Below, piece after piece: positions 992 to 20,340 of a stretch of 64,000 bases of DNA. Made by a program: the position numbers and the translations under genes. Position 1 is the first letter of the stretch. Every line of letters starts with the position of its first letter. The notes beneath the pieces were generated by a model, which worked only from the letters and a program-made list of their open reading frames with translations, made no database searches and had not been told where the DNA came from. This DNA comes from Sphingomonas swuensis (GTDB taxonomy: Bacteria; Pseudomonadota; Alphaproteobacteria; Sphingomonadales; Sphingomonadaceae), in contig NZ_BAABBQ010000001.1 in the NCBI RefSeq assembly GCF_039538045.1, forward strand, positions 890,001 through 954,000, written 5' to 3'.

Positions 992-1007
992 CAGATCGGA
1001 TGATCAT
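978..1007 (-). pseudogene. First ten codons of an SbcC-like ATPase gene, truncated
   Basis: ATG at 1007 overlaps the stop of the SbcD-like gene as ATGA, the same coupling used elsewhere in this operon. The ten codons read MIIRSVELAN, which matches the usual start of SbcC/Rad50-type ATPases (a first beta strand before an F-x-x-F stretch). After them the frame dissolves into low-complexity Arg-rich sequence that belongs, in another frame, to the flanking gene. The partner ATPase was therefore probably present and lost its body at this junction. The identification rests on ten residues plus context. Confidence 0.45.
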
Positions 1008-2131
1008 GCTTCCGCTCCCGCCGTGCTGCGCATTGCCTCGACGTAGAGCCGTTCCAGGGCCGCTGCCGCTAATGAGGCGTCCGCACCGCCCGCATCGGCG
1101 CGGGCTTGTAAGATGGCCGCGGCTCCTGCGAGAGCGCCCTGCACGTCGATACGGGCGACGTCCTCCGGGGTGGGGCGGGCCACAAGGCCCGAGCCATCAA
1201 GGTCTAGATGGCGGAGCTCATGAGCAACGCGTTGCTCGAGTTCATCGATGATCCCGACACGGTCAGCCAGGCTGGCGGCGCCCGCCAGCTTGAGGTCGAG
1301 CAGCACGTCATTGAGGCGATGCTCTGACCGCAGATCCGCAAGCTCGACGTGCAGGTGGTCCAATATTGAGAGGTCCCAGCGCCGTGACAGCCACCGATAG
1401 CGCCCAGTTTCGACGCGATCGATAACCGGAGCATTCCCCTGCCGCACCTCAACAAAGACGCACGCACCGGCTTCTTCGCGGCCGAACCGGTCTGTCTCTG
1501 GCGTACCGCTGTAGGCGGTGCGGTCTCCTATGGTCAGAAAGCCGTGCCAATCACCAAGTGCGAGATAGTCCAGTCCGGCCGTTTGGGCTCGATCAGGGGG
1601 TATGAGGTTGGTGCTCTCACCCGATGCACCAAACTCAGTGATGGAGCCATGAGCCATGCCGATGCGGATGGCCCCGGCTGGCGTTTCCATGTCGACCATG
1701 GCGGCAGTAGGATCGGAAAGCGTCTTCCGGTGCTCAAGAGGAGCAGGAAGCAGCCAGGCTCCTTCTTCGATCTCGACTGCGCATGGCTCGTCGACAATCC
1801 TGACCCGGGCGGGGGCATGGCCACGCACTCGGCTCCAGAGGCCGCCAGGACGGGCGTGGTCGTGATTGCCGGGCATCAGCCACCAGGTGAGCTTCGCACG
1901 ATCCATCCGTGATAGCGCCTGGAGAACAATGCGGTCACCCGGGTCAACGTTGTCGAAGATGTCACCGGCGGCCAGCACATGGTTCGCGCCGCGGGCTTGT
2001 GCCACTTCGGCGATGCGGTCGATGACATCGAGACGCGCCTCGGACAGAGCTCCCGACACCTCTGAGGGAAAGCGTCCAAACGGCTTCCCGAGCTGCCAGT
2101 CAGCGGTGTGGATAATCTTCAGCGCGGCCAT
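1004..2131 (-). CDS. SbcD/Mre11-like metallophosphoesterase (putative DNA exonuclease)
   Basis: The 375-residue product has the calcineurin-like phosphoesterase motifs of DNA repair nucleases: HTADWQLG near residue 8 (Gln where SbcD usually has His), GDIFD at 56-60, GNHDH at 88-92, GMAHG and later LGDWHG. In this family two metal ions cut DNA ends or hairpins, normally with an SbcC/Rad50-type ATPase. Here only ten codons of that partner remain downstream. ATG at 2131 has GGAG a few bases upstream. A gap of 165 bases separates it from the DUF6527-like gene, the largest in the run, so it may have its own promoter. The Gln substitution is seen; its effect on activity is unknown. Confidence 0.88.
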   Translation of the reverse strand: MAALKIIHTADWQLGKPFGRFPSEVSGALSEARLDVIDRIAEVAQARGANHVLAAGDIFDNVDPGDRIVLQALSRMDRAKLTWWLMPGNHDHARPGGLWSRVRGHAPARVRIVDEPCAVEIEEGAWLLPAPLEHRKTLSDPTAAMVDMETPAGAIRIGMAHGSITEFGASGESTNLIPPDRAQTAGLDYLALGDWHGFLTIGDRTAYSGTPETDRFGREEAGACVFVEVRQGNAPVIDRVETGRYRWLSRRWDLSILDHLHVELADLRSEHRLNDVLLDLKLAGAASLADRVGIIDELEQRVAHELRHLDLDGSGLVARPTPEDVARIDVQGALAGAAAILQARADAGGADASLAAAALERLYVEAMRSTAGAEA

Positions 2132-2296
2132 GGGCTACTCCGGGTCAGTAGTTGATGTTGCTTGTAATCGTAAGTGGCACCGTAGCCGAGGTTAGTTGAT
2201 CGGTATCCGTCCCTTAGATGCGGCCGAGGCGCAGATCCCCGGCCACGTCGCAGCCCGGCGACTGCCTTTGGAATCCTTTATGTTAGTTCAACAAGA

Positions 2297-2821
2297 TTAA
2301 TCGGCTCGGACGAAGAACCAAGTTTGGCTCTCCTTCCAGCTGCGGGCGAGACCGTAGCCTACCAGACGATTGGCTGCGCGATTGACGTCATAAACAAGCT
2401 CATCGATCGCGTACGCGATCGCCTCGGCGGTCAGGGGTTTGGAGACGTCCATCGCCGAGAGGACAGCCTCCTCGATCGAGGGATCGTATCGCGGTTCCCG
2501 GTTCCCTAACGTGAAACGGTCGCACCAGATGAGGAAACCGCGCCACACGATGAAGTGGCTCCTGCACCCTCCGTCACGCCAGACGGACGGATACAGGGTC
2601 AGGCCCTCGCCACGGGTGTCCATGCGCCAAGCCTTGTTGGCACGGGGGTCGATGTTGACGACGAGGGTCTCGCCGCAGCCGTCGGGGCAGGCCATGACCA
2701 TCGAACGCGTGCGCCCGCGGACCACCAGCGCGGCATCGCCGGGCTTGGCGAGCTTGGCCTCCGCTTCGTCACGATACTCGGCCTCACCGACGAGGTGGAG
2801 CATCCTTGCCGGCGCCGTCAT
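2297..2821 (-). CDS. DUF6527-like metal-binding protein of the ubiquitin-like operon
   Basis: I place the start at ATG 2821, overlapping the stop of the JAB-E1 gene as ATGA and preceded by AAGGGGGAAAAGGA, giving 174 residues; a longer frame begins upstream without support. The features fit DUF6527, a family known from bacterial ubiquitin-like operons: CPDGCGE near residue 48, then a tryptophan-bounded segment, then GGCRSHFIVWRG. Cysteines and histidine suggest one zinc site. The last 60 residues look like a small helical, possibly winged-helix extension. Its role in conjugation is not established; substrate recognition or a ligase-like function is conjecture. Confidence 0.8.
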   Translation of the reverse strand: MTAPARMLHLVGEAEYRDEAEAKLAKPGDAALVVRGRTRSMVMACPDGCGETLVVNIDPRANKAWRMDTRGEGLTLYPSVWRDGGCRSHFIVWRGFLIWCDRFTLGNREPRYDPSIEEAVLSAMDVSKPLTAEAIAYAIDELVYDVNRAANRLVGYGLARSWKESQTWFFVRAD

Positions 2822-4164
2822 TCCTTTTCCCCCTTTGCAGATGCCCTGCGGACGGGAAGCGGCCAGATCGATCCCTTGGCGCGCGCGCCGGCGGTCGAGC
2901 AGACGATGCACCCCGGATGGCTGGCGACGGCCATCTCGCTCACCTGGCCGCGCAGACCGTCATAGGCGAGGTGGCGCGGACGCGTCGGCACGGGCGTGAC
3001 GGCCCCCAGCAGCATGGTGAGCGCCAGCGAGGTGACGGTCGAGTTGACGGAGATGACGGCGGGCTGGGGTTCGTGGACGCCCTGCACGTACGGATCTGCC
3101 GCCCGCTGCTCCGGCGTCTGGAGCTCGCGAAGAATGGCCTTGCCGTCCAGCGCGCCGGTGCAGGTGAGGCAGGGCAGTCCCGGCGCGATCATCTGGATGC
3201 GTCCGGTGACGTGCGTGATGACGCAGTCGGAGGCCGTGATGCTGACCCCCATGTCGATTACCGGCACGAGATACTGGTGCGCGGCTTGGTTCACGACCGC
3301 CCGACTCGCGTGCGAATCGGTGCATAGGAAAACGAAGTTGAAGGTGGGCAGGAGATCGGCGACATGGGCGTCGACGATGTCCGCCTGGAGCTCCGTGACG
3401 TGCGCCTCAGGGTTGACGGCCCGGATCATCCTGGCCGCGACTTCGACCTTGGGCGTTCCGACATCGCCGGGCACCGAACCCACCAGCCGGTTGAGGTTGG
3501 TGGTCTCGACCTCGTCTGGGTCGATGACGGTGACGTCCATCGCGCCTAGATGGGCGAGCTGCTGGCAGGCGAGCGAACCCGTACCTCCGGCGCCGATGAC
3601 GCCGTAGCGGAGGCTCTTCAGCAGACGCTGGCCGGGTTCGCCGAATGCGCGAACCTGCCGGTCCTCGCGCTGCAGATCCGCGCAGTCTGGTCCGGGGGAA
3701 TGCAGGGCGAGGTTCCGTCCGACCTCCCACACCTTGATCTCGTCGTTCGATCCGAGGCGGCGGGCGCGGCAGCCGTTGGCGCCGATGACGAGCGCGGCGT
3801 GGGGAACGGGTGCGCCGCGCCGCGCGAGGTAGGGGGCGATCTGGGCCTCGCCGTCGTCGTCGGTCGCTGAGAATATGGGATGCGTCGAGTAGCCGGGGTG
3901 GGTGTGGATGAGTATCACCGCCATACCGGTGACCCGGCTACGATTGGCGACTTCGAGCAGATACTCGGCCTTCAGCACCGCGGAGATGCGGTCGCGGCAA
4001 TCGTAGGCGCCGTCCGGCACGGGCGAGGCGTCGGCGACGATCCACGCGTCTGCACCGGGGACGTAGTGGGCATAGGCGATGGCGCAGCTTTCGACGGCGT
4101 GGGCGTCGAGAAGCGTTGCGGCGAGCTGGCCGTAGATCGGCGACGGGAACCGGATGCCGCTCAT
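2818..4164 (-). CDS. JAB peptidase-E1 (ThiF-type) fusion of a ubiquitin-like conjugation system
   Basis: This 448-residue protein joins two ubiquitin-pathway enzymes. Residues 1-150 are a JAB/JAMM metallopeptidase with Glu25, HTHP at 87-90 and S-x-x-D at 99-102, expected to trim or remove the ubiquitin-like tag. Residues 185-440 are a ThiF/E1 adenylating domain: GAGGTGS at 191-197, an NLNR arginine-finger segment near 223, and two CxxC pairs (PCLTC at 331 and GCIVC near 425) that should hold zinc. E1 would adenylate the C-terminal Gly of the modifier encoded upstream. ATG 4164 overlaps the stop of the E2-like gene. JAB-E1 fusions are a described arrangement in bacterial operons of this class. 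The catalytic cysteine cannot be assigned from the sequence alone. Confidence 0.9.
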   Translation of the reverse strand: MSGIRFPSPIYGQLAATLLDAHAVESCAIAYAHYVPGADAWIVADASPVPDGAYDCRDRISAVLKAEYLLEVANRSRVTGMAVILIHTHPGYSTHPIFSATDDDGEAQIAPYLARRGAPVPHAALVIGANGCRARRLGSNDEIKVWEVGRNLALHSPGPDCADLQREDRQVRAFGEPGQRLLKSLRYGVIGAGGTGSLACQQLAHLGAMDVTVIDPDEVETTNLNRLVGSVPGDVGTPKVEVAARMIRAVNPEAHVTELQADIVDAHVADLLPTFNFVFLCTDSHASRAVVNQAAHQYLVPVIDMGVSITASDCVITHVTGRIQMIAPGLPCLTCTGALDGKAILRELQTPEQRAADPYVQGVHEPQPAVISVNSTVTSLALTMLLGAVTPVPTRPRHLAYDGLRGQVSEMAVASHPGCIVCSTAGARAKGSIWPLPVRRASAKGEKE

Positions 4165-4543
4165 CGTACTTCCTTCATGCGGTTGATCACCACGTTCATC
4201 CACGTGGTGAGGGTGTCACGGTTGGGGTTCCAGGGCGCGGTCAGGTGCCAGGAGAACCAGAGCAACGGCTCGGTTACGCCGGGGATCGGGTTCATCCCGG
4301 TGTTCTGGGGCTGGCCTCCGCCCTGCAGGGTGAGGTCGGCATCGGTCCAGAAGCAGTCGAGAAGCGCGTAGGGATACCCCGACGGAATGATGAAGCGGAT
4401 GGCGGTCGAGGGTTTCGACCACCCCTCCGGCATTCGGACGTTCGGCTGGTGACGAGCATCACGTCGCTCGTCACCAGCCGGACGTCCGCTCCGCCGAACC
4501 GCTCCCGCAGCTGTTCCAGCTGCATGGTGACGGGCCCCAACAT
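4161..4543 (-). pseudogene. E2-like (Prok-E2_E family) gene with a frameshift
   Basis: ATG 4543 overlaps the stop of the ubiquitin-like gene as ATGA. The first frame reads MLGPVTMQLEQLRERFGG and continues to about 4446; the rest (PNVRMPEGWSKPST through GYPYALLDCFW to the stop at 4161) lies in the minus-one frame. Together they match family-E prokaryotic E2 proteins in length (about 127 residues) and in the PGYP...FW and W-x-H segments. One missing C at the foot of a perfect 15-bp palindrome would explain the shift, restoring TSPNVRM. As read, the protein would be truncated and the conjugation chain broken. An assembly error at the hairpin is a serious alternative. Confidence 0.75.
4443..4480. 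repeat. Perfect 15-bp inverted repeat inside the E2-like gene
   Basis: Arms 4443-4457 and 4466-4480 are exact reverse complements (CGGCTGGTGACGAGC) around an 8-base loop. The palindrome encodes an internal protein duplication (RLVTSD, then MLVTS) and its proximal foot is where the reading frame breaks. Such a hairpin can provoke replication slippage, sequencing error or recoding; no classical slippery heptamer precedes it. Confidence 0.85.
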
Positions 4544-5286
4544 CAGCCGAAGTTCGCCTTGGGCACCGACGAGAAGCGGCGCACGCCGTGCTTCGGATCG
4601 AGGCTGATGCTCTCGTCGTCGCCGATCGTGCGGTCGGGTTCGTCACCATGCCCTTCCAGCGCGAGGTCGTGGGTCTCGTCCCAGCCGGGCACCATCGCCT
4701 TGATTTGCGCGCCGGTGAGCTTCTTCTTCTCGGTTTCATAGCGCTGGCCGTTGACGAAGAAAAAGTACGAGGTCTTGGCCTTGGCCGTGATGAACCTCTC
4801 CACGCCCTCTGCGGTGAGATCGACCTGGGTGCCCACCTCGATCAGCTTGTCGGTGCCGCCGCGCGCTTCGAGGAAGACCGCCTTGTCGTCGTCGATCCCG
4901 GCGAGGGAGCGCAGGACGGACTCGGGGATGCTCGGCTGGCCCCAGACGATGCGGCTGTCGTCGAGCTTGAGGCGGTAGAGCGGGTCCGTGCTGAACGCGA
5001 TGAACTGGTGGGCGAGGCGATCGCGCAAAACGACTGGTTCATCGGCGCGGACGTCTTCGAAGTCGCTTTCCTGGGAGATGACGAACAGCGAGTGCCCATC
5101 GATGTCATTGATCCCTGCGGCTTTCAGGATCTGGCGGCCGAGGGGGACGGGGTCGTCGAGGATGATAGGGCTGTAGTCGACCCCGTCGAGGGCGAAGGAG
5201 ACGCGGTAGCGGCCGGGGCGCAGCGGGCGATCCTGCTGCACGGCGAGTTCGACATCGTCGATGTCGTGGCTCTCGATGATGGACAT
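4543..5286 (-). CDS. Multi-ubiquitin-like protein (three beta-grasp domains)
   Basis: The 247-residue product shows three consecutive beta-grasp units, roughly 24-100, 102-170 and 171-247. The third has the family signature SYFFFVNGQRYETEKK, then TGAQIKAM, and ends VPKANFG, matching the conserved Phe-Gly tail of bacterial multi-ubiquitin proteins. The terminal glycine is the residue an E1 would adenylate and transfer to targets. The first two units are more divergent. The gene lies 87 bases after the helicase gene and overlaps the E2-like gene, so it is translated as part of the operon. Whether it forms single tags or chains cannot be told. Confidence 0.88.
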   Translation of the reverse strand: MSIIESHDIDDVELAVQQDRPLRPGRYRVSFALDGVDYSPIILDDPVPLGRQILKAAGINDIDGHSLFVISQESDFEDVRADEPVVLRDRLAHQFIAFSTDPLYRLKLDDSRIVWGQPSIPESVLRSLAGIDDDKAVFLEARGGTDKLIEVGTQVDLTAEGVERFITAKAKTSYFFFVNGQRYETEKKKLTGAQIKAMVPGWDETHDLALEGHGDEPDRTIGDDESISLDPKHGVRRFSSVPKANFG

Positions 5287-5373
5287 AGTGTATTGTGTTC
5301 CCGTGGACCGAGGCGTGATTGCGTCGGTCTCACAGGGGCAATCCCCGCAGCGCGGCCTAACCGGTAATTCCGG

Positions 5374-8300
5374 TCAGGAATTTATTTGCAGGCTGCCGTC
5401 CACGATCGGGCCGCAGGTGAAGAAGGCCGGGCAGAAGGGGCATGTGCGTTCGGAGCGGTCGGCCTCGAACCGGCCTTCGCCGATGGCGGTGAAGGCCTTA
5501 GAGAGCTTTTCCGTCTGCTTAACCAATCCCTTGTGATCGAACGTGACCCGCGTGGTGGGATCGTCGTCACCGAGATGGATGATCTCGGCGGTGCAGCCCG
5601 GAAGGGATGCGGCGGCTGCGATCTGGAAGGCGGCGTCCGCCACATCCTCCCCCGTCTTCGAGGACCGATGCCCGGTTCTCACCATCCTGGCGATGCGCTG
5701 ACCGGAGGAGTTGGTTTTGAGATCGTCGGGGATCGCGATGAGGGCGTCGTCCCCAATGCGCGTCTCCAGTGTCATGGGGTCCGCCAGGGTGCCTCCGGCG
5801 CGCAGGTCGACGAAACGCTGGACGAGCAAGCCCGCGATCTCGCGGTGGATGGCGTATTCGTCGCCAGCGAGCGGCCCTTCCGACCAGAGCTGATCTAGCA
5901 GGGTGACGGCTTCGGATGCGGATCCGGCGGTGGGCTGCCGTCCGGCCATGTCTTCGATCACGGAGCGCACAATGTCGTGCATGCTGGTGATGGTTGTGGA
6001 TGTCCGCTTTCCGCCCACGCCCAGAACATGGGTGTAGAGGTAGCGCCGGCGACAGCGTGAATAGAGGTGGAGCTGGGAGGTAGTGATCCGGATCGGCGGG
6101 CCGATGCGGACGGGCAGCGGCTTGTCTTCGGGATCGGCGGTTCGGTCGGTGCGGGGCGTTGCGGCCCGCGTGGCGCTCACCCCGAGACGTGCGATGAAGG
6201 GCGACGGGTCGCGTCTGCGGGGCGACCCCGTCCCGGACGACGCGGTGCGTGTCGCCGAATAGAGGAGCAGCCTGTCCCTCGCCCGTGAGGCGGCGACGTA
6301 GAACAGGCATTCCTGCTCTAGGTCGTGGTCGATCGCGGCGAGCGTCATGGTGCTGCTCTCGTTCCCTTCGCCCCCGGTGATCATGCCGTCTGGAACGGGA
6401 CAGGTGGGTCGGCGGGTGGCGGAGGATGTGGGCAGGCTGTTCTTGTTGAGCCCCATGACGTGCACCACCGGGAACTCGAGTCCCTTGCTGCCGTGGATGG
6501 TCATCAGGCGGACGGCGTCGATGCCCTGCGCCGCCTGGGGCAACTGCCTAAGATCGCGCTCGTCGGCGAGCTGCACGAGAAGGCGGATGCCATCGAGCAT
6601 GCGCTGGACCGGCAGGCCGGGACCTGCGCGTTCCGCGCGGAGGAAGCCCATAAACTGCCAGATCGCCACCCCCATTGCTCGGCTGGCGACATCGTCCGCG
6701 GTGGCGATCGAGGCGGCAGTGCGCGTACGGTCGAGCAGAATACGCGCCAGGACAGGCCACGGACGCGACGAGATCCCGAAGCCATCGAGCATGGCGATTA
6801 TGTCCCGCAACGATGTGACATCCGTGGGCGATCGCTCGGGCCGCGCCCACGTCGACTGGGTCCAGGCGAGCGGTTCCGCATCGGTCTTGCCCAGGTGCTG
6901 GACTACAGCGGTGGCGCCGGAGAAGGTCATTCCGGTCGCCAGCCCGGGGAGCGTCGGCTTGCGGACCAGCCCCATCGCGCGGCGGTCGACCAGCAGCGAA
7001 AGCAGGGAGAGCAGGTCCTTTATCTCGGGCCGCTCGAACAGGTTGCCCAGGTAGAGCACCGGGATGCCGCGCCGTTCCAGCTCGCGTCCGATGCGGGTCA
7101 GCCGGTCGTTGCCCGAGCAGAGTACGGCATGGTCCCGGAACACGGTGTCCGCCGACCGGCGCTCGATCTCGTCCGCCAGCGCATCCGCCTCGTCGTCATT
7201 GTCGCCGAACGTCACGTGCTCTGGGCTGTGTCCGCTTGCGGGACGGTCGGCGCCGAGCGACGCGTCGTTCGATCCGGCGCGCATGCCCTTCCCGAACGCC
7301 GAGAAGGCATCGACGATTTCCGGCGTCGACCGGTAGTTGAGCCGGAGCCTGCCGCCGGTTGCGCCCGGGAAGTCGTCGGTCGCGAACCGCGACATGTTGT
7401 ATGACGACGCACCGCGGAACCTGTAGATCGCCTGCCGGGCGTCACCGACGGCCCAGAGGTTCCTGCCCCCGTCGGTCAGTCGCTGAAGGAGCCTGACGCT
7501 GCTGCGGTTCACGTCCTGGTATTCGTCGACGAGGACATGGGCGTACTTGCCGCGCAGCACCGCCACGGCCTCGGGATCGGTGTCGAGCAGCTTGACGGGA
7601 AACGACACAAGGTCGCCGAAGTCGACCGCGCCGGCCGCCTGCTTCAGCTCCTCGTACCGGCGGTACACTAGGCCGACCTCGATGCACCGCTGCGCCGCCA
7701 TGTGCGCGTCGGGATCCACGGCGTGGTCGAGCATAGCCTGGGCGAGTTCGGTGAAGCGCTCGTGCTCGGCGACCTCGTCCTTGGCCCGCGAAATTGCGCC
7801 GAGCATCTCCCTCAGGGGCTTGGCCGGATTCATGATCTCGCGATGGTGCGTCAGGGAGAGCGCCAGGTATTCCTTCTCCATGATCGCGATCGCCTCGCTG
7901 CGGTCCATCATGCGGGGTTCGGCGGCGAAGCCCAGCTGCTTGTGGTAGCGGCGGACGATGTCGAGGCCGAAGGCGTGGAAGGTGCCTATCCACATCGCCG
8001 ACGCCGCGTCGGGGTTTATGGAGGCGATCCGCTCGGAAAGCTCGCCCGCGGCCTTGTTCGAGAAGGTGAGCACTAGGATGCCCGTGGGATCGACGCCTTC
8101 CTCGACGAGCCCGGCGACACGGCCGACCAGTGTCTGGGTCTTACCGGTGCCGGGGCCCGCTTCGAGGAGATAGGGCGCGCCGCGATGCCGCGCTGCATCG
8201 GCCTGCTCTGAATTCAGGGGCTTCGGAGGCTTCTTGGCCGGGTCCGCAGCGGGAGGCTGGATCTCGGGCAGCAGCAGGGCGTCGAGCAGCTGCATAGCGA

Positions 8301-8808
8301 CGACGTCGAACGGCGCGCCCAGCTTGTCGGCGATCTCCGTCGCGGTCATCCCGTCGAGGTGGAGGGACCTCGCGCGAGCGCGCGGGAGGATCAGCTCGCG
8401 TCCGAAGAGGTCCATCTGGATCTCGCGTCGCTGCCGGCGGCTATAGTCGACGACACGATCCTCGCCGACGGGCGCGGCCTCGGACGACCGCGTCGGATCC
8501 ACGACCTTGGCAACGTGCTCAATGCGGTCATCGCCTAACGTTGCGTGACCGAGTTCGTGTCCGATGAGGAACGCCTTGTCGAAGTCCGAGCCTGCGTCCT
8601 CGTAGCGGATCGCCCGTCCTTTCGGATCGAACTGCGCCCGCCCGCGAGCCAGGATCTCGCTGCCCGGCTCGACGGCCTCGTTGTCGAGGCAGCGCATCGA
8701 GGCGACCGCATTGACGATTGCTATCGGCGACCATGGGTCGGCACCCTCGGACACCGCTCGGGCATGGAGCGCGGCGGCCTGCTGACGTGCGAGTTCGACC
8801 GCGTCCAC
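5374..8808 (-). CDS. ImmA/IrrE metallopeptidase-UvrD helicase-Cas4/AddB-type nuclease fusion
   Basis: The 1144-residue protein combines three modules. Residues 1-185 are ImmA/IrrE-like with HELGH at 84-88 and a downstream DLFGRELILPR segment; such domains cleave repressors or other regulators. Residues 195-900 are superfamily 1 UvrD: Walker A GPGTGKT at 218-224, then DEYQD, VGDARQAIYRFRG, LNYRST, TIHGSKGLEFP and YVAASRARDRL. The C-terminus holds a PD-(D/E)XK fold with an isolated Cys (YSRCRRRY) and C1123, C1126, C1132 (CPFCPAFFTC), the spacing of Cas4/AddB iron-sulfur nucleases. The start is GTG. It would unwind and degrade DNA; the protease module suggests control or activation by proteolysis. 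All motifs look intact. Confidence 0.9.
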   Translation of the reverse strand: MDAVELARQQAAALHARAVSEGADPWSPIAIVNAVASMRCLDNEAVEPGSEILARGRAQFDPKGRAIRYEDAGSDFDKAFLIGHELGHATLGDDRIEHVAKVVDPTRSSEAAPVGEDRVVDYSRRQRREIQMDLFGRELILPRARARSLHLDGMTATEIADKLGAPFDVVAMQLLDALLLPEIQPPAADPAKKPPKPLNSEQADAARHRGAPYLLEAGPGTGKTQTLVGRVAGLVEEGVDPTGILVLTFSNKAAGELSERIASINPDAASAMWIGTFHAFGLDIVRRYHKQLGFAAEPRMMDRSEAIAIMEKEYLALSLTHHREIMNPAKPLREMLGAISRAKDEVAEHERFTELAQAMLDHAVDPDAHMAAQRCIEVGLVYRRYEELKQAAGAVDFGDLVSFPVKLLDTDPEAVAVLRGKYAHVLVDEYQDVNRSSVRLLQRLTDGGRNLWAVGDARQAIYRFRGASSYNMSRFATDDFPGATGGRLRLNYRSTPEIVDAFSAFGKGMRAGSNDASLGADRPASGHSPEHVTFGDNDDEADALADEIERRSADTVFRDHAVLCSGNDRLTRIGRELERRGIPVLYLGNLFERPEIKDLLSLLSLLVDRRAMGLVRKPTLPGLATGMTFSGATAVVQHLGKTDAEPLAWTQSTWARPERSPTDVTSLRDIIAMLDGFGISSRPWPVLARILLDRTRTAASIATADDVASRAMGVAIWQFMGFLRAERAGPGLPVQRMLDGIRLLVQLADERDLRQLPQAAQGIDAVRLMTIHGSKGLEFPVVHVMGLNKNSLPTSSATRRPTCPVPDGMITGGEGNESSTMTLAAIDHDLEQECLFYVAASRARDRLLLYSATRTASSGTGSPRRRDPSPFIARLGVSATRAATPRTDRTADPEDKPLPVRIGPPIRITTSQLHLYSRCRRRYLYTHVLGVGGKRTSTTITSMHDIVRSVIEDMAGRQPTAGSASEAVTLLDQLWSEGPLAGDEYAIHREIAGLLVQRFVDLRAGGTLADPMTLETRIGDDALIAIPDDLKTNSSGQRIARMVRTGHRSSKTGEDVADAAFQIAAAASLPGCTAEIIHLGDDDPTTRVTFDHKGLVKQTEKLSKAFTAIGEGRFEADRSERTCPFCPAFFTCGPIVDGSLQINS

Positions 8809-8812
8809 CGAT

Positions 8813-9403
8813 TCAGTCCCGGTCTTCCAGAAGCTCGCGACGCTTGTCGTCCTTCACCCGGCACTGAACCAACAGCGCCTCGAAGGTGATCTTGGCGGTG
8901 GCTGCAGCGGGGGCCTCATCTGACTTGTAGCTCAGGTCTGTCGCCAGTCGGGGCCCGGCGGTCATGAACGCCCGCAGATCGCCGACGCTGGTCCTGACGC
9001 CTCGCGCGACGGCATCGACGATCCACGCCGGCACCGTCGCGATGTCCACCAGCCTCGTACTGAACCCCTGGATGACGCCACTGGGCACGCCCAGCGTCCG
9101 GCGGAGAGCGACGAGATCCTCGCTTGATGCAGTCTCGAAGGGATCGACGACGGCTGCACCGGCATCGGTGGGCATTGTTGCCTGGAACGCCGCCCAAGAT
9201 TCCTCGATCCAAGCCTCGTCGACGGGTGTGCTGGCGCCGTCGCCCGCCCGCCGGAGCCGCATGTCGAGCGACAGGTCGATCAGATCGTCGGCCAGATGCG
9301 GATGGGACTTCAGGTAACGTTCGAGGGTCGCGCGGTCGTGCTCCGGCTCCACCGCGAACGCCAGCAGGACGTCTTCGTCGCTCAGTTGTTTGTGGTTAAT
9401 CAT
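8813..9403 (-). CDS. Hypothetical protein paired with the sigma-like factor
   Basis: I chose ATG 9403 over a TTG twelve bases upstream; it overlaps the end of the sigma-like gene by eight bases and leaves four bases before the helicase gene. The 196-residue product is acidic and mostly helical by inspection, with an N-terminal LSDEDVLLAFAVEPEHD segment like the start of small anti-sigma or adaptor proteins, but no cysteine/histidine zinc motif. Translational coupling to a sigma-70-like protein suggests a regulatory pair; this is inference. I recognise no domain. Confidence 0.7.
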   Translation of the reverse strand: MINHKQLSDEDVLLAFAVEPEHDRATLERYLKSHPHLADDLIDLSLDMRLRRAGDGASTPVDEAWIEESWAAFQATMPTDAGAAVVDPFETASSEDLVALRRTLGVPSGVIQGFSTRLVDIATVPAWIVDAVARGVRTSVGDLRAFMTAGPRLATDLSYKSDEAPAAATAKITFEALLVQCRVKDDKRRELLEDRD

Positions 9404-10205
9404 CGCCTGATCCAATCCCGAGCGCTTGGCGTATCGTATCGAACGCCGCGTCGCGTCGATTGCGGACCGTCTTCTCGGAAGAGACCCCGATTATCTTGCG
9501 GATGGTCATCACACTCTCGTCTGAAGAGTCGATCGGCATTTCCTGAAGGATCATCTCAATCACTCTGCGTTGCTTGTCTGGTAGAGCTTGTATCGCCGCG
9601 ATCACGCGGGACCGGTAAATCGGATCCTCGGAGAGCAGTTCCTGCTTCAGGTCCAGGCTGCCCACAGCCCTCTCCACGGCCAGCGACGACTCACTGCCGT
9701 CGTCGTCGGTCTCGATGCGTTCGCTCCGGGCCGCCGACCGCGTGGCGCGCCTCATGGCCGTCTTCCGGAGCGCGGCTATGGCATCGGCGAACATCACTTC
9801 GTAGTAGTCGAGATCGGAGCCCGCCATGTTGCGATCGACGCTCACCTTCTCGTTGAATAGGTCGCGGACACGATCCCGGGCGTCGGCGGCATGCACGTTC
9901 TCCGACGTGCCTCCGCGCTCTCCCTCAACCCGCGGCAGCACGGCCGTGATTCTTCGCATCAGCTCGCGATAGAGTTCGCCGAAATAGGCCTGATCGTTGT
10001 CGGATCGCGTCGCCCGGATCAGATGGACTATGCATTCCGACTGCACATAGAGCGGCGAGCGGACATCGAGGATTTCTAAGGCGGCGATGATCTCTGATCG
10101 CGGAAGTCCGACAAGCCGTTCAAGAGCGTCTTCGACATCCTCTCGGCGCGTGTATGTCGTGCCATCCGGCTTCTGCTTCGTCAGTGGCGGTACATTTGTT
10201 CCCAA
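9396..10205 (-). CDS. Sigma-70-family-like factor heading the ubiquitin-like operon
   Basis: The 269-residue protein starts at TTG 10205, chosen because GAGGAG lies eight bases upstream and no ATG fits. The C-terminal 70 residues resemble sigma region 4: LPDKQRRVIEMILQEMP, then MTIRKIIGVSSEKTVRNR, a helix-turn-helix with a recognition helix. The centre (residues 120-165) could be a reduced region 2. The N-terminal 100 residues are unlike ECF sigma factors. As first gene of the operon it probably controls its own transcription. It could instead be a DNA-binding response protein without core-RNAP function. Confidence 0.75.
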   Translation of the reverse strand: MGTNVPPLTKQKPDGTTYTRREDVEDALERLVGLPRSEIIAALEILDVRSPLYVQSECIVHLIRATRSDNDQAYFGELYRELMRRITAVLPRVEGERGGTSENVHAADARDRVRDLFNEKVSVDRNMAGSDLDYYEVMFADAIAALRKTAMRRATRSAARSERIETDDDGSESSLAVERAVGSLDLKQELLSEDPIYRSRVIAAIQALPDKQRRVIEMILQEMPIDSSDESVMTIRKIIGVSSEKTVRNRRDAAFDTIRQALGIGSGDD

Positions 10206-12253: not shown

Positions 12254-15200
12254 ATGAGCAGTGCTGCCCGCCTCGACACACAATCCATCATCGCGTTGGC
12301 GCAGCTGTGCGACAGCGTCAAGCACGACACCAAGATCCGTCGAGCGGAGACTGATGGACGTATTGCCCTAGCCAAGCAGCGCAACCTCGAGTGGCAGCTT
12401 GGACTCAGGAGCAGCGCAAGTGACCTGTGGGCTGGCTCTTCTCGATCTTACACAACCATCCCTCATTTCAAGCCAACCAAGAAGAACAGCCGCTCGCGCC
12501 TTGTGCGTGACGTGACGGTGCCAGCGGTCACCTACAAGCCACGGAGGTCAGCTGCTGGCCTGCGCTCGTTCCACTACTCGATCGAGCCCATTCCCAAGTC
12601 CTCCTTCTTTCGACAGCTCGCGTCCGGCACCAAGATCGGTCCGGGCGCTGGCGAGGCTCGGATCCGTTACACGACGAGAACCGAAGGCGAGCAAGCATAT
12701 CTGCTTGGCGATCGCGTCCAGTCTGATTTTTTCGGGCGCCCGCTCATCATCACCAACATCAGTCCGAGTAGGGACCCCAACGAAATCGCCGAATTCTACT
12801 CACTGGTCGAGGAGAACGAACGCGATGCCAAGCCCGACAAGGCGCTGATCGTCTTCAATCGGCATCCTGAGGTTTGGAGGCGGGTGGTCGACGACCCCGC
12901 GTGTGAGCCAGCGGTGCTGAAGGCGTACCTGGCGGTCAAGGGGCAGGGGAGCGTTGAGGTCGAGCTGGTTCGCGGTGCCGATGCCTTGCTTGAACTGATG
13001 AAGCGGCATGGCTTCGTTCCGGCAGACAAGGTCCACTCGCCAGAGCGCCAACAGGAGCTTAATGGACTGAAGCTGACCAAGGGCAGGGGCGGGCGCATTC
13101 AATGGCGCATCGTGGTCGCGCTGCCGGTCGAGTTTTCGGCTCGCCAGCGTCGCCGTGCGGCAGAGGCGATCTGCCGCCGGCTTGAGCGACGCGGAGCCAT
13201 GTATGCCGCCGTCATACACGAGCCGGTCGCGACCAATCACCAGAACAACTACCATGCCCACATCGATGTCTATGACCGGCCATGCCGCCCTCTGTTCGGC
13301 GATGCACGCGACCTCGACAACGTTGCCCCCAAATGGAAGGCCGAGATCAAACGCCAACTTGAAGCCGGAGAGCTTCAGCACCTTAAAAGACAGTGGGACT
13401 TTGCGGCGGTCCGAGAGTATCGCTCCAGTTCCGGCAATCGGACGCTCCACAAGCCATTTCGGGCGAAGAAGTCGGGCGCCTTTCGGGCCTTCTCATTCCC
13501 TAAGCGGCATAGGGCAGAAATTGCCGGCATCATCAATGCGATTGCCGTTGCTGGCGGGCACGGCAGGCTTTACAATCCCCGCACCTACGGCGAGATGAAG
13601 ATCGCCAAGGAACCGGACGAGCAACTCGGTCCCAGGCGCCACGGCCTTGAGGCAAAAGGCGCGCCGACGAATGCGGGCATGCGCAACGAAGAGCGCCATG
13701 CCGAAGCGGACCGCCATCTGATTGAAACTGCTCATCAGCAGCGGCTGAAAGAGATCACTCAGCAGCAGCGCGCCTTTGACTCGAAGTGCGATCAGCAAGG
13801 CGAGCCCAGCTCCGAGCAAAAGAAGGCTCGAGACGAGGCCCATGCTGCGCTTGCTGACCTGAAGCTGGTGGCCCGCGCCCGCTACCGGGCCGAGCTGTCG
13901 CGGCTTGAGATGCAGCGGCAGCTTTCTCGCCCACGGAACATGATCAGGGCCGCCGGCCGGGCCAAACGCCTCGGCGAGGATCCGCGCGGCGAGCTCGCTA
14001 CGCTTGGCGAAGAGGCACGCCACTATTGGCGCGACTGGCAAAAGCACAATCAACCCGCTCTTGACGAGCTCCGGGAGCTGTCGGCGTTTGCGGCCCGAGA
14101 AGGCGAGCTACAAGCTGCGTCGGAACGGCTGCAAGCTGAGGCCTTGCGGCCAGTGCTCATGACCAACGCTACGAGCGGACTGGCGGAGAGCGTTGAGGGT
14201 GCGACGTGGCGTTCGCCGGAGCCTGTGCCTCTTCCAGTCACACCGGCGTCAATCGTGGAGAGCGAAGCCCCGCTGCTGCTTGGTCGTCGGTTTAAGCGTA
14301 TCATCGAGGAGGCCCATCATCGCACTTCTGAAACTGTGGCTGAGCCAAAGCGGAACATCATGGTCCGAGGTTCCAGGCTCGACGGAAACATCAGCCAAGC
14401 AGGATCGATAAGCTCAGTCGAGCCGACGCCCCCTACCACATCAGAAATCGACCAAGCGAACGGCAAGACGGAGAACGCCATGAGGCAGACGTGGCAGCCT
14501 GCAGCGCCGATGAACTCGGATAGGAGCGACGCTGTCCCTGCTGCGAGTGGCTCGAGTGCTCCGTCAGAGCTGGCGCAAGATGACGACAAGAAGCATGCCG
14601 TTTCGAAGGTTGAGCTCGGGACTGCCTCCCAGCCTCATCCCTCCGTGTTCACCGCTCAGCCCGTGGCCGCCGGAAATGCGCCGGCGGCGCTGTCAGGCCA
14701 GCCGGCCATAAGCGGGTCCGAGCCGCCCCCGAAAGAGCCGGGGGATGCGCGAGGCGTGGGGGTGCAACCTGTGGCGGAGCAGGGCGGGGATCCATTGCCG
14801 ATAGAGTCACTTGCGCGGGACGGATTGAACAAGGAGAGCGGCACCGACGCTAGCGGAGTGCTTGGCGCGTCTTCTCCAGCGGCACGCAGGATATGGGCAG
14901 ACCCACCTCAGAGCTCGGAAACTACGCGACGCGACCTAACGCACGCAGAGATGATCGCAGCCTATCTCCGCAAGCTTGAGGCCAACGGCGTACTCCTCAG
15001 CAAGAACAAAGCCACAAGTGAAATCCACGGATCGTTTCGAGATGGTTCGGAATTAAGCCTCACGGACAAGCTGCTTTTTCGCTGGGGCGGCTTAGCTTTC
15101 GAACGCCTTGCAACCAAGCAGCTCGAGATCCGCCAGGTGCAGGACTATCTGCTAAGGCACGGTGAAGCCTTGGCACGCACGGGCAAGCAGCCCGGCCCTC

Positions 15201-15361
15201 GCTGCCAACGGCTTATGAAAAGTTGGCGAGACGAGCCGAAGTTGCAAAAGGCTCTCGCGTGGTTTGCCGCCGAGCAGGAGGAAGCCATCCGGCGGAAGGC
15301 GGCGGACCTGGCCGCGCAAAACGCCCGCGCTGTCGCGGGCCGTATCATACTTGGTCGTTGA
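12254..15361 (+). CDS. MobA/MobL-like relaxase
   Basis: The 1035-residue protein carries a relaxase core at about 270-350: RIVVALPVEFSARQRRRAA, AAVIHEP and NYHAHIDVYD, with H334 and H336 matching the metal-binding HxH of MobA/MobL enzymes. Such proteins nick oriT and stay bound to the strand during transfer. The 270-residue N-terminal part is unusual for the family and has no recognised domain. A long charged helical stretch at 490-640 follows, then a low-complexity linker, and a globular end (residues 895-1010, LTHAEMIAAYLRKLEANG). No helicase or primase motifs are visible. Coupling protein and secretion genes are absent nearby, so it would depend on a helper element. Confidence 0.82.
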   Translation: MSSAARLDTQSIIALAQLCDSVKHDTKIRRAETDGRIALAKQRNLEWQLGLRSSASDLWAGSSRSYTTIPHFKPTKKNSRSRLVRDVTVPAVTYKPRRSAAGLRSFHYSIEPIPKSSFFRQLASGTKIGPGAGEARIRYTTRTEGEQAYLLGDRVQSDFFGRPLIITNISPSRDPNEIAEFYSLVEENERDAKPDKALIVFNRHPEVWRRVVDDPACEPAVLKAYLAVKGQGSVEVELVRGADALLELMKRHGFVPADKVHSPERQQELNGLKLTKGRGGRIQWRIVVALPVEFSARQRRRAAEAICRRLERRGAMYAAVIHEPVATNHQNNYHAHIDVYDRPCRPLFGDARDLDNVAPKWKAEIKRQLEAGELQHLKRQWDFAAVREYRSSSGNRTLHKPFRAKKSGAFRAFSFPKRHRAEIAGIINAIAVAGGHGRLYNPRTYGEMKIAKEPDEQLGPRRHGLEAKGAPTNAGMRNEERHAEADRHLIETAHQQRLKEITQQQRAFDSKCDQQGEPSSEQKKARDEAHAALADLKLVARARYRAELSRLEMQRQLSRPRNMIRAAGRAKRLGEDPRGELATLGEEARHYWRDWQKHNQPALDELRELSAFAAREGELQAASERLQAEALRPVLMTNATSGLAESVEGATWRSPEPVPLPVTPASIVESEAPLLLGRRFKRIIEEAHHRTSETVAEPKRNIMVRGSRLDGNISQAGSISSVEPTPPTTSEIDQANGKTENAMRQTWQPAAPMNSDRSDAVPAASGSSAPSELAQDDDKKHAVSKVELGTASQPHPSVFTAQPVAAGNAPAALSGQPAISGSEPPPKEPGDARGVGVQPVAEQGGDPLPIESLARDGLNKESGTDASGVLGASSPAARRIWADPPQSSETTRRDLTHAEMIAAYLRKLEANGVLLSKNKATSEIHGSFRDGSELSLTDKLLFRWGGLAFERLATKQLEIRQVQDYLLRHGEALARTGKQPGPRCQRLMKSWRDEPKLQKALAWFAAEQEEAIRRKAADLAAQNARAVAGRIILGR

Positions 15362-17781: not shown

Positions 17782-18615
17782 ATGACCTACAGCCCACCCA
17801 GCTACAACTGGGGCCACTTCGTCGTGCTCGACCTCGAGACAATCGTGCCTGGCGCTGATCCGGAGGAAGGCTTTCCGGCATGGCCGCGCCACGAGATCGT
17901 CTGCACGTCAATGCTCTTGGCAGACCGAGAGCGCTACAATGAGTGGCACTTCGATCTGGTCACCGTGGACGGTGACAGTGAAGATGCGATCCGCACCATC
18001 GATCAGCTCATCGGCAAGCGCACCGTCGTGACCCTGGGAGGCCGGAATTTCGATGCTCCGGTCCTCGGCATGGCCGCCATGCGCTGTCAGGTGTTCGACT
18101 GCGACAACATCGCTCGGTTCTGGTCGTCGCCGCGCTTCGGTGCGGCCCATGCCGACTTGGTCGAGCTCTTCGGCAACTACGGCGCGGTGCGAGGCGGCTG
18201 CTCTATGAAGGAGCTGAGCCGGGCACTGGACGTGTCGGCCAAGGTGAACTGCGACGGCGGGGACGTCGCCACCATGATGGCCGCAGGTGAGATCGAGAAA
18301 GTTCGTCGATACTGCGAGCAGGACTGCGCAAGCACACTCCATTTGTGGGCACACTGGGCGGCGATGAGGCAGGGTGACCCGGCCTATTATGCAACCCTGC
18401 TCTATCAGTTCGACGAGTATGTCTGGGCGGCCGAGCATAATCACTTGGCAGACTTCACGCATCTGCCGCGCAGGGACGAACTTTGTCGGCGATCGGCGCA
18501 GGCGGTCGCGAAAGCCGGGGCGGAGGCCGTGGAGATACGGGAGCACCTCAACTGGGTCGATCCGCAGCGCTGCGCCCGGATCGTTGAGCCCGCCTTCGAG
18601 GATTACGACGGCTGA
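17782..18615 (+). CDS. DEDDy-type 3'-5' exonuclease (PolB-exonuclease-like)
   Basis: ATG 17782 follows AAGGAG. The 277-residue protein has the full acidic set of DEDDy exonucleases: VVLDLET (D17, E19), GGRNFDAPVL (D91), a middle HADL (D125) and YCEQD (Y177, D181). The layout matches predicted exonucleases related to the proofreading domain of family B polymerases. It would remove nucleotides from 3' ends of DNA or RNA with two metal ions. It has no polymerase domain. It is the first and most intact of three neighbouring genes of similar plan, so a shared process such as nucleic-acid turnover or defence is inferred. Confidence 0.82.
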   Translation: MTYSPPSYNWGHFVVLDLETIVPGADPEEGFPAWPRHEIVCTSMLLADRERYNEWHFDLVTVDGDSEDAIRTIDQLIGKRTVVTLGGRNFDAPVLGMAAMRCQVFDCDNIARFWSSPRFGAAHADLVELFGNYGAVRGGCSMKELSRALDVSAKVNCDGGDVATMMAAGEIEKVRRYCEQDCASTLHLWAHWAAMRQGDPAYYATLLYQFDEYVWAAEHNHLADFTHLPRRDELCRRSAQAVAKAGAEAVEIREHLNWVDPQRCARIVEPAFEDYDG

Positions 18616-19356: not shown

Positions 19357-19509
19357 CGCTGGATCCCTCACCCGCGGCATCGAAGTCCAAAAGATGTGAA
19401 GCGCGCTGACGGGCGCTCCTGCGAGTTAGCGGTGAGGAGGGAAAGACCTCGCCATTGCTCGAGCCAAGGCCGCATTAAGCGGTCGAGGCACAACAACGAC
19501 GACCACCTG

Positions 19510-19536
19510 ACAAAGCCCGCCGCCTGGGGGTTTTGT
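19510..19536 (+). terminator. Stem-loop with U-rich end, possible attenuator
   Basis: ACAAAGCCC at 19510-19518 pairs with 19528-19536 (9 bp with one G-U) around a 9-base loop, and the sequence continues AGTTTCT. It lies 25 bases before the start of the third exonuclease-like gene, so it would act as an intrinsic terminator after the second gene or as an attenuator for the third. Confidence 0.35.
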
Positions 19537-19560
19537 AGTTTCTACCAGAAAGTCAACAAT

Positions 19561-20340
19561 ATGACCCAGCACCACAACGACAATAGCAATCGGCCCGCGT
19601 TCTACGCGGTGCTCGATATTGAGATGCTATACCGGCTCGACGCCGTTGAATCTTACCGGAAACTGGATCCCAGTCCCTGCGAAGTTATTCGATACCCATT
19701 TCGAGCAACCTGCGCTGCGGCCCTGCTGACCTTCTCGGTGGTGGACGGCATCTTCGAATTTGGGAGCTTGCATTCTTGGGCCGGAGACGACGAGCCGGCC
19801 CTGCTTGGTGCACTATTTGATCAACTGCGCATGCTGCCCGACCACCGACTGGTGACGTGGGGCGGCCTGTCGATGGACCTCCCCGTGCTTCGGATCGGCG
19901 CCGCCCGGCACCATCTGCGGCTGCCACGCCAGCTGATCAAGGATGCCAGGAAGGGCCGTGATTGGCTGCATCTCGATCTTGCCAAGGAACACCATTGCGG
20001 AACCTACGTGCACCTGACTGAAGTCGCAGTGGCGCTTGATCTGCCGGTGAAGTTCGCTGATCGGGCATCCAGCGTGCGCAAGCTGCTGGAGACCGGCAAG
20101 CTCGAGAGGCTGAGAGACGTGCCGATAGCCGATGTTCTGACCACCTCCCTACTTCTGCAGGCACAACTGGAATCGCACGGCGAGCTCAGCTCGGCGCGAG
20201 CGGCGCAGATCATGACCCTGAGGGAGGTTGCCAGCCGCCGTCCGCATGCCCGCTATGCCGACTACCTTGGGCGCGTCGAGAAGCGACTGTCGATGGAGGT
20301 ACTGGCTGAAGCGCAGGCCTTCATCGCCTCAGCCGCGTGA
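19561..20340 (+). CDS. Exonuclease-like paralog lacking the catalytic tyrosine
   Basis: I use ATG 19561; an upstream GTG extension is basic and unlikely. The 259-residue protein aligns with the 17782 gene: AVLDIEML (D19, E21), TWGGLSMDLPVL (D106), LHLDLAKEHH (D139) and IADVLTT (D191). The residue matching Y177 of the first gene is Val or Pro here, so the DEDDy centre is incomplete. It may be inactive, use another general base, or bind nucleic acid. Third member of the tandem set, and the only one preceded by a stem-loop. Confidence 0.7.
   Translation: MTQHHNDNSNRPAFYAVLDIEMLYRLDAVESYRKLDPSPCEVIRYPFRATCAAALLTFSVVDGIFEFGSLHSWAGDDEPALLGALFDQLRMLPDHRLVTWGGLSMDLPVLRIGAARHHLRLPRQLIKDARKGRDWLHLDLAKEHHCGTYVHLTEVAVALDLPVKFADRASSVRKLLETGKLERLRDVPIADVLTTSLLLQAQLESHGELSSARAAQIMTLREVASRRPHARYADYLGRVEKRLSMEVLAEAQAFIASAA

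Follow-up and report, generated by a model that had tools for sequence, protein, structure and literature searches.

The 64,000-nucleotide window analyzed here (G000:C1:890001-954000), taken from the 2.79-Mb, single-contig genome of Sphingomonas swuensis, contains a cassette of ubiquitin-like conjugation genes preceded by a block of three genes. This block sits beside several ubiquitin-like systems and may well be a switch that activates them under DNA trouble. An open reading frame check of positions 1004-10205 bears out the eight co-directional genes that an earlier note on this DNA had described, all of them on the minus strand. In order of transcription, they encode a sigma-like factor, a conserved protein called ORF2 here, a fusion of an M78/ImmA protease, a UvrD helicase and a PDDEXK-like domain, a Multi_ubiq modifier, a Prok-E2_E protein, a JAB-E1 fusion, a DUF6527 protein, and an SbcD-like phosphoesterase; the first three make up the block. 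The ATGA overlaps that had been claimed for the array hold within the ubiquitin block, where start and stop codons overlap as TGATG once and then as ATGA twice, and the sigma-like gene and ORF2 share a few overlapping bases, but 87 bp separate the helicase gene from the modifier gene and 165 bp separate the DUF6527 gene from SbcD.

The third block gene (5374..8808) encodes the fusion, a protein of 1144 residues delineated by Pfam, NCBIfam, and conservation. Pfam recognizes UvrD-helicase (E value 4.3e-63), Peptidase_M78 (2.1e-10; residues 60-174, 8287..8631), and PDDEXK_1 (5.8e-8), the last in a C-terminal domain that is also supported by alignments (residues 908-1132, 5413..6087). The zinc site of the protease is made up of an HExxH motif (HELGH at residues 84-88, with H84, E85, and H88) and E129 as the third-ligand glutamate; none of the 41 aligned fusion proteins lacks any of these four residues or the Walker A and DE residues of the helicase. 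Four cysteines of the Fe-S-staple type are conserved in all 40 aligned fusions that reach the C-terminal end. In the PDDEXK-like domain, motif-II column 1041 holds arginine in 39 of the 41 proteins, histidine once, and glutamate once (locus L083), column 1042 is never acidic, and the fusions of loci L100 and L101 likewise lack the acid in a 44-row realignment. The DxK of RecB/AddB-type nucleases, made up of the motif-II acid and a lysine, is thus not found in it. A stand-alone UvrD-PDDEXK protein used as a control (L069) reads VVDWKS at the matching place, a stretch in which it is unaligned in the 44-row realignment. Because the motif-II acid is missing, the domain is probably a DNA-binding pseudo-nuclease; RecC provides a precedent, as it reads DNA through an inactive nuclease-like domain. 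The ImmA-UvrD-nuclease fusion proposed in the earlier note is matched in all three parts, but the word nuclease is doubtful. With its protease site invariant and its nuclease acid lost, the fusion has the look of a DNA-sensing protease in control of the cassette and not of a nuclease that is tagged by it. Among the PADLOC matches listed, the helicase core is the sole recognized part of the block, with GajB (1.7e-63) and DRT RTasHel (5e-67) covering about residues 197-611 only. Helicase matches were found in 24 phage records, none covering 80% of the query, and the helicase gene had no near-DNA match in the E. coli genomes searched.

The block was followed through ORF2 into 45 other loci: 21 from a GTDB contig scan, which are all that it returned (L012-L032), 5 from ORF2 searches of genomes (L033-L035, L061, L062), 13 plasmid loci from helicase matches (L073-L085), and 6 from Multi_ubiq matches (L006-L011). 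The last group is biased towards a link between block and cassette, whereas the 13 plasmid loci, chosen by eye and absent from the 40 Multi_ubiq matches listed, are biased against it; plasmid records with the helicase at E ≤ 1e-100 numbered 88, of which 19 were opened. Two viral contigs (L098, L099) and the loci L100 and L101, found later through BilD, stand outside the 45. In 43 of the 45 loci, the block has a ubiquitin-like E1 next to it (20 of 21 from the GTDB scan, 5 of 5 from genomes, 12 of 13 from plasmids, and 6 of 6 from Multi_ubiq matches). This co-occurrence is far above chance, and the suggestion that the two halves of the array belong together survives the neighborhood survey. The two misses are L025, which has no cassette, and L078, which has an IS66-type insertion and other genes, followed by a Multi_ubiq fragment where the stretch ends. 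A helicase is found in 44 of the loci, and the sigma-like gene is matched at 1e-9 in 42. Helicase and E1 occur together in 42 loci, on the same strand in 41 and divergent yet adjacent in Robbsia (L077); a 1.1-kb gap separates helicase and E1 in L017, where an operon is unsure.

Hosts of the block include Alpha-, Beta-, and Gammaproteobacteria, the cyanobacterium Leptolyngbya, and metagenome-assembled genomes of a planctomycete and of Methanoregulaceae, for which binning errors are possible. ORF2 occurs in 70 plasmid records, 45 of them from Acinetobacter, and 58 of the 70 are conjugative or mobilizable; among 100 relatives it is found in three, the window genome counted. The copy on a Klebsiella plasmid (L007, 12809-19380) adjoins Tn7-like transposition genes, which suggests that it is cargo of a Tn7-like element. 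Viral contig L098 ends inside ORF2, with the sigma-like gene before it.

The cassettes behind the block fall into several types, assigned with profiles built from these loci and with Pfam and PADLOC on representatives only. Type I is that of the window, with Multi_ubiq, Prok-E2_E, JAB-E1, and DUF6527 (L006, L012-L016, L018-L023), and L085 resembles it, with a modifier that does not end in glycine and no DUF6527 found. Type II combines Multi_ubiq with a DUF6791-E1 and mostly DUF6527 (L007-L011, L024, L027, L031, L034, L061; Pfam on L007, L008, and L010). Type III is Bil (L032, L073, L080-L084), represented by L084, in which PADLOC recognizes BilA (4.9e-57), BilB (3e-60), and BilD (6.5e-175), the JAB gene being outside that scan. 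Type IV has Multi_ubiq fused to Prok-E2_E, followed by JAB-E1 and mostly DUF6527 (L026, L028-L030, L062, L074-L077, L079; Pfam on L075), and type V is a single protein with Prok-E2_A, ThiF, and JAB (L017). Multi_ubiq-E2 fusions of odd length, about 384 and 361 residues, occur in L068 and L077. A further and divergent copy of the block lies in the window genome itself, at about 2766600-2773530 of G000:C1 (L033, stretch 2760000-2779500), where it is followed by JAB and a BilD-like E1 (BilD 5.6e-14) and then by RmuC. On a tree of 40 helicase proteins, the eight cassette labels need 11 changes, compared with a least possible 7 and a shuffled mean of 23.6, which means that cassettes cluster on the tree but have also been swapped. 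Type V is nested inside type I with a support of 100/100, and one 100/100 clade unites L073 (Bil), L031 (type II), and L025 (no cassette).

Surveys in the reverse direction started from the cassettes. Multi_ubiq occurs in 12 of 385 genomes of the class, and all 12 loci were opened. Three carry the block, and in eight of the nine block-less loci a stand-alone M78 protease lies no more than about 2 kb away, so that 11 of the 12 loci have an M78 domain within 5 kb. The same 12 genomes contain 36 M78 matches per ~46 Mb, or about 0.5% expected per random 10 kb by a rough Poisson estimate. The ninth block-less locus, L067 (G370:C19:59000-78000), has the order Multi_ubiq-DUF6791-E1-DUF6527 with no M78 and an Xre-antitoxin/RES-toxin-like pair in the controller position. 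ORF2 alignment A1 finds 3 of the 385 genomes, an undercount that misses the divergent ORF2 of L100 and L101. BilD is matched at E ≤ 1e-3 in 84 of the 385 genomes, nearly all of them weakly and as general ThiF kin. Four BilD loci lie at E < 1e-100: L100 and L101 have ORF2 and the helicase fusion just upstream, and L102 and L103 have an M78 with a helix-turn-helix (HTH) domain in place of the block. Between 1e-100 and 1e-30, G425 contributes one place and G173 two; two of these three (L104, L105) have no block, L105 being a 3.1-kb contig. Pfam places an HTH domain beside the stand-alone M78 in four inspected block-less loci (L064, L071, L102, L103). Around Multi_ubiq and Bil cassettes alike, the two options are thus the helicase block and a plain M78 with HTH. 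That an M78 protease is common to loci with and without the block suggests that the helicase-protease controls the cassette and not the reverse.

The other two block proteins are less easily recognized. The sigma-like factor (9396..10205, 269 residues) matches NCBIfam PRK12513 at 2.6e-5, far under its cut-off, and alone it gives a weak Pfam match to Sigma70_r4_2 (E value 0.017). Its family is clearer, as, at a threshold of E ≤ 0.05, 28 of its 36 members match Sigma70_r4_2, the best at 2.7e-8, and 19 match Sigma70_r4. The designation as a sigma-like factor holds at the level of the family, and its proposed control of expression is plausible. ORF2 (8813..9415; about 195 residues) is defined by its homologues, of which there are 146 in the protein collection searched, and by alignments in which a nearly invariant methionine makes the ATG at 9403 the more likely start. 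Profile scans of the window protein with Pfam and PADLOC returned no family. Weak matches to an Xre-like HTH, the best at 0.0034, occur in two of 57 ORF2 members, the window protein not being one of them, and the idea that ORF2 is a known antitoxin was rejected after a family profile search of its members.

It is about an even chance that the first three genes form a transferable DNA-sensing protease module controlling the neighboring ubiquitin-like cassette. In the fuller reading, to which we give a probability of roughly 45%, the block is a shared mobile switch in which a protease-helicase with a disabled nuclease responds to foreign or damaged DNA by licensing tagging cassettes that can replace one another (Bub-like, DUF6791-E1, and Bil). 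The data show the genes present, their conservation, the swapping of cassettes, the unvarying protease and helicase motifs, and the loss of the nuclease acid; we infer that DNA is sensed, what the protease cuts, which part controls the other, and which proteins are tagged. The helicase and pseudo-nuclease parts would engage abnormal or single-stranded DNA, such as phage DNA or broken forks, and this engagement would switch on the ImmA-type protease domain. The protease would then remove a partner, most likely ORF2 in the role of a repressor or anti-sigma factor, and the sigma-like factor so freed would raise expression of the neighboring cassette. The cassette, made up of E1, E2 or an E2-like domain, modifier, and JAB deconjugase, would be the effector that tags target proteins, with the often-present DUF6527 as a putative zinc-binding accessory, and different lineages would have placed different cassettes, Bil included, behind one switch. 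A precedent is described in the available part of PMC13373217, where the CapP protease, once activated by single-stranded DNA, cuts the CapH repressor, so that immune operons are expressed more strongly. According to the same part of that source, of 544 Bub operons, CapW or CapH+CapP occur with 219 and CapK+CapS with 59, and Bil is counted among the known antiphage pathways. As the same block precedes Bil cassettes, an antiphage function of the window cassette, which the earlier note had linked to phage attack, becomes likelier.

Several observations weigh against a switch of this kind. A helicase is heavy machinery where the small CapP suffices. Some loci lack a part that the mechanism would use: L025 has the block followed by SbcD and SbcC and no cassette, L035 has no helicase, and viral contig L099 holds a piece of ORF2 with no helicase within the 12 kb available. 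The sigma-like gene is unmatched at 1e-9 in L032, L077, and L083, and 12 aligned upstream regions reveal no common operator; many of these 12 rows, but not that of the window, contain a loose GCTTGG-like stretch, which is not built upon. Pfam recognizes no DNA-binding or anti-sigma domain in ORF2, so that the protease substrate is a guess. Modifiers ending in glycine are confined to type I and most of the seven BilA-like ones; conjugation itself is uncertain for these cassettes because type-II modifiers end in serine, those of type IV form part of a fusion with an E2 domain, and in L033 and L035 JAB and E1 occur with no modifier seen. Lastly, the available part of PMC13373217 states that phage protection by Bub operons has not been demonstrated.

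The cassette of the window itself begins with the modifier (4543..5286), in which Pfam finds Multi_ubiq in three repeats (1.3e-34). Its C-terminus, ANFG, confirms the Phe-Gly ending reported earlier and is also found in the 12 relatives examined. Solved multi-ubiquitin relatives are 9cd2, 8u38, 9d5b, and 9d59, with E values from 6.1e-18 (9cd2) to 3.1e-14. The depositors label 8u38 as 'Ubl-BilA', so that it is not settled whether such modifiers should be named Bub or Bil. The JAB-E1 gene (2818..4164), whose start overlaps the E2 stop as ATGA, matches ThiF at 6.3e-45 and Prok-JAB at 4.8e-5, just under its cut-off, and the nearest solved structure is Citrobacter BubCD (9ea4, 5.3e-31, residues 48-390). 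The DUF6527 protein (2297..2821, Pfam 3.1e-18) has a predicted zinc site of C42, C46, C83, and H86, all invariant in 35-row and 61-row alignments. Pfam thus agrees with the earlier assignments of both proteins. No near-DNA match to 2300-4700 was found in the plasmids searched.

The E2 gene (4161..4543) is the weak point of this cassette. The E2-like protein that had been proposed is recognized as Prok-E2_E (3.8e-8), but the match is in the C-terminal piece only, since the gene is frameshifted, its N-terminal and C-terminal parts lying in different frames. All 12 relatives examined (L006, L012-L016, L018-L023) have E2 intact in one frame, which means that the window copy is either damaged or misread. 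It is possible, at somewhat less than even odds, that the window copy is decaying and that the frameshift leaves a remnant cassette without conjugation. Split genes in other loci (E1 in L006; helicase in L009, L010, L011, L021, and L074) are consistent with such decay, but the remaining seven reading frames of the array are open and a base-calling error could account for the break. A programmed frameshift was considered and rejected, as none of the 12 relatives shows one.

The last gene of the array (1004..2131) encodes the SbcD/Mre11-like phosphoesterase, an identity that stands with matches to Metallophos (1.2e-6) and NCBIfam sbcd (3.8e-14). Of the 45 other loci, 11 have an SbcD match at E < 1e-50, which makes the gene an optional accessory. 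SbcC is not beside it in this genome, where the downstream genes were judged by eye to be unrelated; SbcC-like partners are present in L025 and L073. SbcD homologues lie upstream of or divergent to the block in L016, L074, and L081, and DUF3320 proteins neighbor the L006 and L074 loci. Elsewhere in the window are two PolB-type 3'-5' exonuclease-like proteins (17782-18615 and 19396-20340) and a 1035-residue protein (12254-15361) with no match in Pfam.

Alternatively, the helicase protein could itself attack phage DNA in the manner of Gabija, with the cassette arming or disarming it through conjugation, either to this protein or to a partner, a reading we consider unlikely. The helicase core does match GajB and DRT RTasHel, SbcD does recur, and type II CBASS conjugates its neighboring cyclase, as described in the available parts of PMC10449767 and PMC10097602. 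However, these PADLOC matches are confined to the helicase core, the motif-II acid is absent at column 1041 in 40 of 41 fusions, and the stand-alone M78 at eight of nine block-less Multi_ubiq loci is left unexplained. The related proposal of the earlier note, that conjugation tags or switches nucleases, fares poorly for similar reasons: the acid is missing, SbcD is present in a minority of loci, and the M78 protease is the shared element. An equally improbable reading is that the operon is a DNA-damage or stress response in which the helicase-protease senses breaks and tags remodel repair proteins, with no role in immunity. The undemonstrated protection by Bub operons, the SbcD-SbcC accessories at some loci, and the RmuC gene adjoining the second block copy in the window genome would fit it, but the mobility of the plasmids bearing ORF2, its patchy spread among relatives, and the presence of the same block before Bil weigh against it. 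That two unrelated defense systems co-travel by chance in defense islands is very improbable, since, even though block and cassette are both plasmid-borne and mobile, helicase and E1 are closely adjacent in 42 loci, cassettes have been exchanged at one position, and the Robbsia halves are divergent yet adjacent.

When the switch reading is compared with known systems, the closest for the cassette is Bub, which shares the multi-ubiquitin modifier, E2, and JAB-E1 fusion, and the modifier and JAB-E1 of the window are close to solved proteins. The multi-ubiquitin modifier and the BubCD-related JAB-E1 expected of Bub are found in the window, and an intact E2 is not. For Bil, nine loci (L032, L073, L080-L084, L100, L101) have ORF2 and the helicase fusion immediately ahead of a four-gene cassette of Bil type, and a sigma-like gene is recognized in most of them, but the window cassette differs and no Bil model is among the PADLOC matches listed for its proteins. 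CapH+CapP has in common with the block an M78/ImmA protease beside ubiquitin-like cassettes, CapP being, as we assume, a member of the M78 family, and the zinc site is intact in the window. It differs in that the protease of the block forms one protein with UvrD and a PDDEXK-like domain and has a sigma-like factor and ORF2 as partners in place of an Xre HTH protein, no HTH family being found on the window ORF2. Gabija shares the UvrD-type helicase core, but the window fusion has the M78 and pseudo-nuclease parts in addition. A stand-alone Gabija system was rejected, as the PADLOC match is to the helicase core only and no GajA is among the matches listed for the other proteins. An alphaproteobacterial multi-ubiquitin fused to an inactive E2-like domain is mentioned in the available part of PMC11354881, in which the word helicase does not occur; the type-IV cassettes are such fusions. 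Neither UvrD nor helicase nor sigma factor occurs in the available part of PMC1779556. Searches of openly licensed PMC papers, outside which the primary Bub and Bil papers fall, turned up no description of the block. The claim that no characterized system matches thus stands for the whole gene set in the sources searched, but not for the ubiquitin part, which is already close to known Bub proteins. There is an open chance that the block represents a distinct class of controllers of ubiquitin-like immune operons.

How bacterial ubiquitin-like systems sense when to act is largely open, and a block that is reused across them offers a single testable entry point. It singles out ORF2, DUF6527, and the sigma-like factor for study as defined genes, and it can be used as an anchor to find further tagging systems. 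If the switch reading is true, Multi_ubiq operons with the block would be immune systems, and the block would represent an immune controller of a new class, one in which DNA unwinding is coupled to proteolysis and to protein tagging.

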